Origin: Clostridia bacterium
GTDB taxonomy: Bacteria; Bacillota; Clostridia; Christensenellales; UMGS416
Direction: 5' to 3'
DNA length: 64,000 nucleotides
Assembly: GCA_016938675.1 (NCBI GenBank)
Contig: JAFGUF010000001.1
Span: 1-64,000, forward strand
Position numbers and translations under genes: made by a program. Of this stretch, positions 2,215-7,624 are shown piece by piece; the stretch's first letter is position 1; every line of letters begins with the position of its first letter. The notes beneath the pieces are model-generated. The model was not told the DNA's origin, made no database searches, and worked only from the letters and a program-made list of their open reading frames with translations.

Positions 2215-4382
2215 TTACGGAATTATTGTTCCGTCAAGGGCGTTGATCCTGACTATGCATACATCTTTCTGCTCTGTCATTTCATAATTGCCTTCCAGAT
2301 ATACCGGTTCATCAAATTTCATATTGCCTATGAATTCCCACACAGGAGTTGCTATGTAGCTTGTTGCATCTTGATCATCAGGAACCATGACTACATTTAG
2401 CCGTACGTTATTGATATAAAGAGTTGCAGATGCACCCAAATTGGTTTGCGCATTTTCGCCAGAATTCCAGTAGAAATCATTTTTGATATATTCTTCGAAT
2501 GCATTTATGATTTCAGCTGAGTCTAGAAAAGCAGCATCGTTTTCAATGATTTCAGGTTTATCTATGCTGTTTAGCCACCATACTTCGAATATGCCCTCAT
2601 CATCTACAAATATATTTGCAAAGTTGCTGTATGTATAGTGGTTTTCCTCGCCTGCCAGCAAACTGGATGGACTGGATAAAATCCCGTAGTATTCTCTGTA
2701 GAAGAAGAAACGATACATTGGATAAGAGCTGTCAGAATAGCAGAGAGTCTTTTCAAGCTTGTAATTATTATCTGAACCATATAATTCTTCTATCAATTTC
2801 TCCGCAATTTCAAGGCAATCATCATATGATTTTTTCATTCCCTTAATATCGCTGCCTGTATAATCTGATGGCTTGCCAAACTGATAGCCGTCATCAAATC
2901 TCCAGTAGGCAAGTTGTGTATCCAGTTCGTTATCGGACTGAGTCAGCTCCAAAAAAGAATTCTTGCTATCACTTGTGGATGCTGAAACTTCTGTATACGT
3001 AGTGCTTGGATGTTCTGAATTTAAATCACCATCAATTCTGGTGGTTTCTCCGCTGCTCATTACTTTAATATCACCGTTACTGACCATATCACCATTATTC
3101 GAAACGTAGTCTATGAAACTGTCCAGCTGTTCATTTGAAATATTTTTGGGCACTACACGAACAAGATCAATAGTCTTGTCAACAGGCATATCCAAATCAG
3201 CATCAACATAAATTTTCACGTTTACACTGGGCTGAGCTTCAAATTCAATATGTGTGCTTTCTGTAGGTTCAGATACTGCTGTGTCTGAGTTGTTTGCCGG
3301 CAGGCATGCCGTTGTGAAACATGCGATTGAAATGATTGCAGCGGAAAATATTGCTGCAATACTTACACCTTTTAGTTTTTTAGTTGGTTTTATCATGTTT
3401 TCTACTCGCTTTCGCAGGTTACTCCTATCCTCGCAGAAGGACAGGGCAATGGGTAATTTGATTACACCGTTTGAAAGCTTGACTACATCCAGCAGGCTTT
3501 GAGAATAAAGCCTACATTTATCGTCTTTAAATGCTCTTAACACCAAAGTGTCGCAATGTAGTTCTGTGTCATTTATATATTTACTATGTGCGTAGGCCAC
3601 CAATGGATTAAACCAGTATAGTATTGCCGCCATCAGCCATAGATAGTTTTTTGCTATTTCCAGCTTTTTTATATGATATAGTTCATGAAGTATTATAAGT
3701 GATTGCTTGTCTTTGACAGTGTATCTATGAAACCAAAAGGAAGAATTATTTTCGGATACATAATTCCGTATGTGGCAGGTGCGTCAATATATGGGCATTC
3801 CTGAATAATAACCTTTCTTCTTAGCTTTATTAGTTTCCTGTTTGACTCCATCATTTGAATGATTTCCGCATCATTAATTGTCAGGCTAAGGGAAATTTTC
3901 TTTTTGAAGCGTATTATACTATACATTTTTATAAAAAGAGTAATGAGTATGCCTGCTGCCCAAATATATGAAAGATACAGCATTATATTTGCTTTATGAT
4001 AAATTGTTCTTAATTTATCCCAAACTGGCAGCTGCTGAAAAGCATTTGTATTTGTTTCAGGGGCCTTAGAAGTATTCGGCGCAGCTGCTGGGTTATCGCC
4101 TGGCAATTCCTCACTATAGTTTGTTTCTGGCTTTTCTTGAAGTGCTGCAGTATCAGGTGCAACAATTATATCTGACCTGAAGGCGGGGATAAACGAATCT
4201 GCATGGATTCCGATTTCCGGAGTAATCGGAACAGCCAGCCGTAAAACTACTAGCAGCCAGAGAAAAGAAAGAATCTCTATGTGTAGTTTCTTGGAAAATA
4301 GTTTTCTTATAATAAGAATGGCTATTATCATTATTGTAGATAACATCGTCGATATTAATATGCTTTTAAAAAGGGGAATCAC
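2215..4382 (-). pseudogene. BlaR1-like M56 family metallopeptidase, split by a frameshift into ORFs 3693-4382 (N-terminal TM part) and 2215-3633 (C-terminal part)
   Basis: ORF 3693-4382 ends ...PKIILPFGFIDTLSKTSNHL*. The adjacent frame continues TVKDKQSLIILHELYHIKKLEIAKNYLWLMAAILYWFNPLVAYAHSKYINDTELHCD, which carries the HExxH motif (HELYH) upstream of the annotated Met at 3633. One frame change near 3715-3722 restores a continuous protein. Could be a real mutation, a sequence error or recoding. Confidence 0.75.
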
Positions 4383-4837: not shown

Positions 4838-5644
4838 TTACATTCTGGTAACAATTAAATTTCCTGATTCATATTTCCTAAGTCCTCTGTAAAAGAAAAC
4901 AAATGATAAAACGAGAAATCCAATAGCGAAGGCAAGCCAGATAGCGAGCGTACCAATATTGAAATCCTTAACAAGCCTCAGCGGAATATGTGAAATAAAA
5001 GCCGCAGGAAGCAGGGAATAGATAAGAATCCTCACTATACCGCTGAATATTTTATCAGGGTATATTGAAAAGCTAATCATAAATTCAAAAACAGTCGACG
5101 CTATCATTTCGGCATTTCCGATATAGAATGTAAGGGTATGCGCAAGAATATTAACACAGGTAAATATAACAGCGCCTAGCATTACAGCCAAAACAAAAAT
5201 AATCCAGACTTTTGCTGATAGGCCCCATACAATAGCCAAAAGCACAACACCGTATACCAAGTCGCCCCATGCGCTGACGGACGTTCCGGCACCTAGAATA
5301 TTTGGCAGCACAGGCACAGGCTGCAGCAGGAATGTGTCCAGTTCGCCGGTTATTATAAGGTTGCTTATCCTGTGAACATTATAAAATAGTATATGTGCTA
5401 GGCCGAATGCTGAGCTGGTGACAGCCCATAGAAACATAATATCCTTGAAAGTATAGCCAGCTATATACTCACCTGCGACTCCAAAAGCCAGCCACCAGAA
5501 AAATATAAATGTTGCGTTATTTATTGCCATTCCGAACACCTGAACTAAGAAGCTAGCTCTGTATTCCATCTGTGATGATAAATTAAGCTTAAAGTAGCGC
5601 GTGAATAGCCGTAATATTTTTTTAGCCTCCGTGTACATGAACAT
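4838..5644 (-). CDS. ABC-2 type transporter permease
   Basis: Multi-TM protein; likely start at MFMYTEAKK (5644), overlapping the upstream permease; adjacent permease and ATPase. Confidence 0.85.
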   Translation of the reverse strand: MFMYTEAKKILRLFTRYFKLNLSSQMEYRASFLVQVFGMAINNATFIFFWWLAFGVAGEYIAGYTFKDIMFLWAVTSSAFGLAHILFYNVHRISNLIITGELDTFLLQPVPVLPNILGAGTSVSAWGDLVYGVVLLAIVWGLSAKVWIIFVLAVMLGAVIFTCVNILAHTLTFYIGNAEMIASTVFEFMISFSIYPDKIFSGIVRILIYSLLPAAFISHIPLRLVKDFNIGTLAIWLAFAIGFLVLSFVFFYRGLRKYESGNLIVTRM

Positions 5645-6410
5645 TCCTGACTCCTTTCTTAAATACAAAATAGCATATAGCGGCAAGAACAACTGCCCAA
5701 GTCGTCTGCATCATGATAGTGTTGGTTGCCTGGCTGATATTGAATGCTACAAATATCTTTGCAGGCCCCCATGTAACAAGCGAAAACGGCAGGTATTTTA
5801 AAGGTTTCTGCAGCCATGAAGGGAAGAATTCAATAGGTACAAAAGTACCAAGCATCAGGATGAACTTTGAGTAGATAAAGAAGAATGGCCTGCTTTCCTC
5901 CACAAAGAACGCGCTTAATGCTATTGTCATCAGCATTGAAAACTGCATAATGATAGATAGCACAAAAGATAGAACAAAGTAAGGAACCATTACTGCGCTT
6001 TCTATATTAGGTATGCCAACAAGTACTGTTCCTAATATGCCTCCTGTCAGTATATACAGACAGAACTTAACAAAAGAGGCACCCATGGTATTCGAGAAAA
6101 CATACATCAGGTAATTATACGGCCTTCCCAACTGATACGCGATATCTCCGTTTTTAATATCCTGCGATATTTTATATAATGTAGTCGTCCCAATAGTAAG
6201 GCTGGTCATCTCCGTGATGCACACATACCATATCATTTGGCTGTATGTATAGTTCGCTATTGTGTTGCTGCTATATATCACTCCCCAAAGGCGAAAGAAA
6301 ACATAGATAAACAGTGTGTACATTATTACTCCGCCAAAGAGGTTTTTGTTATAGTACACGGCATTTCGCAGGCTGATATTAAATATTGTTAAGTATTTTC
6401 TTATTTTCAT
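5622..6410 (-). CDS. ABC-2 type transporter permease
   Basis: 262 aa multi-TM protein; overlaps the ATPase gene by 4 nt. Confidence 0.85.
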   Translation of the reverse strand: MKIRKYLTIFNISLRNAVYYNKNLFGGVIMYTLFIYVFFRLWGVIYSSNTIANYTYSQMIWYVCITEMTSLTIGTTTLYKISQDIKNGDIAYQLGRPYNYLMYVFSNTMGASFVKFCLYILTGGILGTVLVGIPNIESAVMVPYFVLSFVLSIIMQFSMLMTIALSAFFVEESRPFFFIYSKFILMLGTFVPIEFFPSWLQKPLKYLPFSLVTWGPAKIFVAFNISQATNTIMMQTTWAVVLAAICYFVFKKGVRNVHVHGG

Positions 6411-7405
6411 GGTGCACCTGCCGCTGTCTTTTTGAATATATCTAGTATGATCTCTTCCATGGGAGGATCGTTGATTGTTATGTCTGCTAGATTGCCATCT
6501 TTGCTTATCATTGATATAACCTCATTTATTGATACTTTTTCAGTATCCACATGCAATGAAGCTGCATAGTCAGTTGATTTTATTATTTTTACGCCGTCCA
6601 TTGAAACAGGTTTTTGCTTTTCGAAGAATCTCGCCGAAATGATTTTCATATTCAGATAATCGTATTTTAACTTTTTAACCGATTCATCCAGTACAATTTT
6701 TCCATGGTCTATTATCATAGCTCTTTTGCAGATTTTTTCGATATCCCCCGCGTCGTGGCTGGTTAAAAATATCGTTGTATTATACTCTTTGTTTATGTGC
6801 AGTATCAGCTCACGTATCTTTTGCTTTACTACTACATCGAGCCCTATAGTCGGCTCATCAAGGAATAGAATTTTGGGCTGGTGCAGCAGCGATGCAGCTA
6901 TCTCACAGCGCACTCTTTGCCCAAGTGATAGCTTGCGAACGGGCGTTTTCAGCAGATCGCCGATATCAAACATTTCCACCAGATAATTTAGCCTGGAAGT
7001 ATACTCATCCTTTGGCACTTCATATATATCTGCAAGCAGGCGGAAGCTATCTGTAGGAGGCAGATGAAACCAAAGCTGAGATTTCTGGCCAAAGACTGTT
7101 CCTATCTGCGCAGCTAGCTGGCGGCGTTTTTTTGCCGGATCCAGCCCAAGCACGCTGATAGATCCATCAGTGGGGTGCAGAATGCCTGTCAGCATTTTTA
7201 TAGTTGTGGATTTGCCTGCCCCGTTTGGGCCGATGAAAGCCATTATTTCGCCTTCATCCACAGTAAATGAGATATTGCTGACGGCTTCCACGGTTGCATA
7301 CTCCGGCTTAATCATTGACTTAAGGCTTTGCTTAAATCCTTCTTGTTTTACCTTTGTAGTGAACGTCTTTGTTAAGTCTTTTACCTCTATGCAGCGCATT
7401 TTCAT
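6407..7405 (-). CDS. ABC transporter ATP-binding protein (ABC-2/NatA-like)
   Basis: Walker A GPNGAGKST, signature LSLGQRVRCEIAASLLHQPKILFLDEPTIGLD. Confidence 0.95.
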   Translation of the reverse strand: MKMRCIEVKDLTKTFTTKVKQEGFKQSLKSMIKPEYATVEAVSNISFTVDEGEIMAFIGPNGAGKSTTIKMLTGILHPTDGSISVLGLDPAKKRRQLAAQIGTVFGQKSQLWFHLPPTDSFRLLADIYEVPKDEYTSRLNYLVEMFDIGDLLKTPVRKLSLGQRVRCEIAASLLHQPKILFLDEPTIGLDVVVKQKIRELILHINKEYNTTIFLTSHDAGDIEKICKRAMIIDHGKIVLDESVKKLKYDYLNMKIISARFFEKQKPVSMDGVKIIKSTDYAASLHVDTEKVSINEVISMISKDGNLADITINDPPMEEIILDIFKKTAAGAP

Positions 7406-7454: not shown

Positions 7455-7499
7455 AAAGCCTCGAAAAAGAATCCGTATAGGACTCCATTCTCGGGCTTT
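7455..7499 (-). terminator. Intrinsic terminator forming the expression platform of the ykkC-family riboswitch
   Basis: Minus strand AAAGCCCGAGAATGGAGTCC-TATA-CGGATTCTTTTTCGAGGCTTT then ATTTTTTTATATATTTTT; its 5' arm reuses aptamer nucleotides AAAAGCCCGAGAA. Confidence 0.75.
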
Positions 7500-7583
7500 T
7501 ATCCCAAATAGTGTACATCAATCAGATGCTGCGCCGCTTTGACCAGTCTGCTCAATCAAGCACGGAACCATAGGCGCACTCCT
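7488..7583 (-). ncRNA. ykkC-family riboswitch aptamer (subtype unresolved: guanidine-I versus ppGpp/PRPP-like)
   Basis: Minus strand AGGAGTGCGCCTATGGTTCCGTGCTTGATTGAGCAGACTGGTCAAAGCGGCGCAGCATCTGATTGATGTACACTATTTGGGATAAAAGCCCGAGAA. Matches the ykkC core (CTAkGGTTCCG / ACTGGTC / GGGAtAAAAGCCCG); P1 GCGCC/GGCGC and P2 TGCT/AGCA pair. Confidence 0.8.
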
Positions 7584-7595
7584 AAAATTTTTACG

Positions 7596-7624
7596 ATTAT
7601 AACATCCATGGATATTAGTGTCAA
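7596..7624 (-). promoter_or_regulatory. Sigma-A promoter of the riboswitch/ABC operon
   Basis: Minus strand TTGACA (7619-7624), 17 nt, TATAAT (7596-7601), about 13 nt upstream of the aptamer. Confidence 0.85.

Follow-up and report, generated by a model that had tools for sequence, protein, structure and literature searches.

The ykkC RNAs linked to natA transporters have been placed in subtype 2a, the ppGpp class (PMC5912903). In ppGpp aptamers a C within a conserved ACAC pairs with the guanine of the ligand (PMC10687018, PMC6031431). For a Clostridiales ppGpp riboswitch it has been described that the residues G10-A68, C69, A70, G48, C49 and G98 respond to ppGpp and that the ligand holds the outer helix against a terminator (PMC10687018). 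A Clostridiales natA aptamer is stated, with reference to earlier work, to bind pppGpp about tenfold better than ppGpp (PMC12373219). A useful subtype marker is the position that holds A46 in guanidine-I aptamers; both the ppGpp and the PRPP class have a pyrimidine there, which in the PRPP aptamer is C49 (PMC6031431).

With these systems we have compared a leader in a stretch of 64,000 nucleotides from a Clostridia bacterium (contig JAFGUF010000001.1), the whole of which is called the window; all window features described below are on the minus strand. Very probably the leader belongs to the natA-linked riboswitches of ykkC subtype 2a, with (p)ppGpp as the ligand assigned from the published relatives. 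It is a slightly unusual additional copy of a described type of (p)ppGpp switch, neither a new type nor an orphan.

The leader is preceded by a sigma-70-type promoter (7624-7596) with a -35 element TTGACA (7619-7624) and, after a 17-nt spacer, a -10 element TATAAT (7596-7601); all 12 consensus positions are matched and a TG precedes the -10 element. Transcription is expected to start near 7590, just upstream of P0. The aptamer is complete from P0 to P0' (7476-7585); of 200 shuffled versions of the leader, 199 fold less well than the leader itself (z = -2.86). P0 is formed by UAGGA (7580-7584) and UCCUA (7478-7482), the latter shared with the 5' arm of a terminator, and P1 by UGCGCC (7573-7578) and its 3' strand at 7535-7530. 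Then follow the P2 hairpin CAUC/GAUG (7516-7528, with 7528-7525 pairing to 7519-7516), the ACAC junction block (7511-7514), which is invariant in the group alignment, and P3 with its AUAAAAG docking loop (7490-7508), seen both in the fold and in the match to the Rfam family RF00442. By analogy with the ppGpp aptamers the first C of the ACAC at 7514-7511 is expected to be the partner of the ligand's guanine. The block GGAG (7483-7486) in front of the P0 3' strand is a signature of the natA type according to a tally of the sorted relatives. Covariation in P0, P1, P2 and P3 far exceeds that of shuffled and slid controls; in P0 five of the six pairs are altered on both sides among 36 distinct sequences, most relatives having GAGA/UCUC where the window has UAGGA/UCCUA. 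Two helices must be reassigned compared with an earlier note made from the sequence alone. The TGCT/AGCA pairing taken there as P2 is a hairpin on P1b, and the AGUG/CACU outer pairing proposed as P0 is wrong, P0 being the covarying UAGGA/UCCUA. A version of the AGUG/CACU pairing is present in the minimum-energy fold of the leader; it draws its bases from P1, from the conserved G in front of P1 and from the conserved ACAC.

The intrinsic terminator hairpin (7455-7500, -22.2 kcal/mol) is followed by an A and seven U (U tract 7453-7447). It excludes P3 and P0. Its 5' arm takes in the AAAAGCCCGAGAA segment together with the 3' strands of P3 and P0, and the aptamer and the terminator are therefore mutually exclusive. 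As a nearest-neighbour estimate, which ignores tertiary contacts, the terminator state has -46.4 kcal/mol and the aptamer-constrained state -31.7 kcal/mol, a gap of about 15 kcal/mol, and since the terminator state is the lower in energy OFF should be the default without ligand. A terminator re-using the P3 3' strand was found in 21 of the 22 natA-type leaders tested. The switching could be pictured as follows. As long as no ligand is bound, P3 and P0 would give up their 3' strands to the sequence downstream, and the terminator so formed would stop transcription. Binding of (p)ppGpp at the junction of P0, P1, P2 and P3 would hold P0 and P3 and block the terminator, which would allow transcription of a three-gene ABC-2 exporter operon. 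The switch is probably an ON switch, a direction expected from the ligand-held outer helix of the Clostridiales ppGpp riboswitch (PMC10687018). The promoter and the overlapping terminator with its T-rich run had already been described in the earlier note and stand after consensus comparison and folding; its reading of an ON switch is supported as probable by the mutual exclusion and by the published relatives.

Rfam RF00442 matches the leader across all 107 model positions at 7584-7486 with 51 bits (E 1.9e-8), which bears out that it is a complete member of the ykkC family. The curated threshold is 63 bits and a default scan for this reason shows no ykkC match at the leader. The covariance search proposed in the earlier note consequently has two outcomes: nothing at the default 63 bits, and the 51-bit RF00442 match when the threshold is relaxed. 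Low RF00442 scores are common among subtype-2 RNAs generally, so that the single ykkC model in Rfam misses subtype-2 members at its default cut-off. RF00442 has no second match in the 2.6-Mb genome, and the other genomes of the same family that were searched have none.

To place the leader within the ykkC family, 390 genomes of the class were screened with RF00442; the matches, and one more from the order, were sorted by the downstream gene, and the resulting groups separate cleanly. The marker is C in all 36 subtype 2a/2b relatives and A in all 19 guanidine-I relatives, and the window has a C at 7536, that is, the pyrimidine of subtype 2. As in subtypes 2a and 2b the ends of the RNA form a P0 helix, and the ACAC with the ligand-pairing C of the ppGpp class is present. 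RNAs in front of the same ABC exporter have marker C and mostly ACACU with CGAG or GGAG; the window has ACACU and GGAG and the same exporter operon downstream. It shares with this natA-linked 2a group the P0-P1-P2-P3 four-way junction, the ACAC, the docking loop, the GAG before the P0 3' strand, the overlapping terminator and the downstream genes for an ABC ATPase and two membrane proteins. The ppGpp-responsive residues of the Clostridiales riboswitch, mapped by published numbering and not by sequence, fit the AGUG, AGC, ACAC and GAG of the group. A natA-type covariance model which includes the window gives the leader 89.6 bits; a model built from 17 natA-type RNAs with the window left out still gives 80.4 bits (E 6e-17), where the less typical genuine members of the group score 75-82. 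The ligand subtype, left unresolved in the earlier note, is hereby assigned to 2a from the marker C, the covarying P0, the leave-one-out model and the gene context. A presumed orphan becomes an assigned and testable (p)ppGpp switch. The 2a RNAs linked to branched-chain amino acid (BCAA) genes have the marker C, P0 and the fold in common with the window. They precede ilvB/N/C and have ACACC and CAGG where the window has ACACU and GGAG, and because of this difference at the junction blocks the natA type is regarded as a subgroup.

The core of the aptamer deviates from its relatives in having CUAUGG for CUAGGG and GGUCAAAG for GGUCCGAG. These deviations include both partners of RF00442 pair 15-48, which is G-C in 58 of 58 sorted relatives and U-A in the window (U7570 pairing with A7540). 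Both sides of one pair have thus changed from G-C to U-A, the fold is kept and the core is intact. Many relatives also have the G-to-A exchange that is the other change in GGUCAAAG. The sequence changes pointed out in the earlier note are real; their reading as divergence is replaced by that of one compensatory pair change, and this shows that a pair conserved in all sorted relatives can be exchanged as a pair. The window further differs from the natA-linked group in its P0 sequence and in reading AGAAUG where an RGGAC-like stretch is usual; the U-A at pair 15-48 and the AGAAUG before GAG are absent from all natA-type relatives.

That the leader could be a guanidine-I riboswitch (ykkC subtype 1) inducing a guanidine exporter is suggested by the name of its best Rfam match, RF00442, and by the GGGAUAAAAGCCC which they have in common. 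They also share P1, P1a/b, P2, P3 and the docking loop. The resemblance to guanidine-I seen in the earlier note is not supported, however. Low scores with RF00442 are usual for subtype-2 RNAs; the guanidine-I relatives carry A at the marker where the window has C, they are without P0 blocks and mostly stand before SMR/SugE genes, which leaves this reading a negligible chance. A PRPP riboswitch (subtype 2b) would account for the marker C, for P0 and for the overall fold, and yet is extremely unlikely: a PRPP covariance model gives the window 48.5 bits against 81-109 for PRPP RNAs, and the PRPP RNAs have a P0 of GAAA/UUUC and lie before purine genes and a purine permease, whereas an exporter follows here. 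Their ACACC and UAGG are invariant, in contrast to ACACU and GGAG in the window. It should be noted that these PRPP blocks were taken from invariant alignment columns, as a tally of the base after CAC has mis-hits in CACAC contexts. The ppGpp class is distinguished by having no counterpart of G96 of the PRPP aptamer. In this stretch, after P3, the window reads GAGAAUG after CCC; the alignment is ambiguous there, and the PRPP-type GG and UAGG are absent.

Among the remaining subtypes, 2d, an orphan to date, has transporters among its linked genes (PMC7266159); these are EamA/TauE transporters and not ABC-2, and guanidine-I is described as its nearest relation (PMC5912903, PMC7266159). As to 2c, the nucleoside diphosphate class, the NUDIX-linked RNAs that we found have G at the marker, as have those linked to thiamin genes; with the natA model the NUDIX-linked RNAs reach 26-31 bits. 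An assignment to 2c or 2d is therefore highly improbable. The suspicion of a divergent or orphan variant raised in the earlier note is likewise removed by the 80.4 bits with the leave-one-out natA-type model compared to the 48.5 bits with the PRPP model, and by the shared gene context. One might finally suppose a decayed riboswitch, in which the fold is kept by descent and binding is lost, as two invariant core bases are altered and the RNA is isolated within its own family. The two core changes are compensatory, though, and no damage is seen in the promoter, the junction bases, the docking loop or the terminator, so decay is very unlikely. The preferred reading is the natA-linked 2a riboswitch.

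The operon downstream consists of an ABC transporter ATPase gene (6407-7405, PF00005, start at 7405 or 7399), a gene for a membrane protein presumed from its operon position to be a permease (5622-6410), the product of which has no significant family in Pfam and NCBIfam searches, and an ABC-2 permease gene (4838-5692, PF06182). The ABC-2 exporter operon of the earlier note is thereby recovered. The best NCBIfam match of the ATPase, the DrrA subfamily, falls below the cut-off, and for this reason the name "natA" is to be taken loosely. A RelA/SpoT protein is encoded in the genome. As (p)ppGpp is an alarm signal of starvation, its assignment as the ligand would link this uncharacterised ABC-2 exporter with the response to starvation.

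The covariance model which includes the window finds related RNAs at 36 of the 80 ATPase relatives fetched (E <= 1e-3, the last few being weak), with strong matches in Clostridia and weaker ones in Paenibacillaceae. The Paenibacillaceae copies upstream of the ATPase (L055, L056, L064, L068-L070, L072, L075 and L081) have P0 GGAA/UUCC, ACACC and CAAG and thereby resemble the ilv group more than the natA group of the Clostridia. At L132 a natA-type 2a RNA precedes a GNAT acetyltransferase gene instead of an exporter. An RNA with the NUDIX-type marker G at L161:300-417 lies before a thiC-like gene (named by sequence inspection), not before a NUDIX gene.

At the exporter leaders of L009 and L042 the window-including model gives a weak match or none, but these leaders do carry a shorter RNA (L009:2339-2448; L042 near 2695-2800). 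This compact RNA also stands upstream of genes at L215-L218, L220-L225 and L227. It is about 85 nt long and has a P0-P1-P2-P3 junction with GAGC, UACAC and GGAG blocks, without the P1a/P1b core and docking loop of ykkC, and it is accompanied by a promoter and an overlapping terminator. The orthologous exporter follows it in L009, L042 and L215; elsewhere the genes are for GNAT acetyltransferases, methyltransferases, a dCTP-deaminase-like protein and an HD-domain protein. A pattern built on the shorter RNA hit 7 genomes out of 390 in the class and 5 out of 399 in the phylum, at 13 places of which two (L219, L226) are without the flanking motif; a reversed control pattern gave none in the listed genomes. 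Eleven aligned compact RNAs share AGUGA-G-UAUGC ... GAGC-NGCAUA-P2-ACACG-P3-GGAG-UCACU, after which the leaders have a terminator-like hairpin re-using the 3' part. Taken jointly P0, P1, P2 and P3 covary above all shuffled and slid controls.

No family of Rfam 15 matches the compact RNA, and a text search of the literature for its core string returned no relevant paper, which is weak evidence of novelty. Guanidine-IV and its variant were considered and set aside, as guanidine-IV is described as hairpins with a pseudoknot and the terminator and not as a four-way junction. The compact RNA agrees with the natA type both in the succession of its junction blocks and in the invariant G-U pair that closes P2; this suggests that the two descend from one RNA or have converged on the same pocket. 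The compact RNA is a candidate riboswitch. We tentatively consider it an undescribed compact sister of the natA-linked switch, which may be a second aptamer, without the dock, for (p)ppGpp or for a ligand related to it, though we would put this at somewhat under an even chance. The sequences are few and the pattern preselects some of the conserved bases, and it is accordingly a lead and not a result. If real, the compact sister raises the question of how much of the ykkC scaffold the pocket needs.

Two further observations concern the surroundings of the exporter. In other Clostridia with the same exporter (L031, L035, L043, L046, L050 and L065) a GC-rich conserved block, GCGCCGGTAGC .. GCCGGTGCGGGCGC .. 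GCGTTGCATCGGC, lies in the last 200 nt or so before the ATPase gene, and an Rfam search at the block gave no match. In the window itself a BlaR1-like M56 peptidase gene (2215-4382), preceded by a BlaI-like repressor gene, is split by a frameshift near 3690, with the HELYH zinc motif in the downstream frame just past the frameshift; either a pseudogene or an error in the assembly may account for this.
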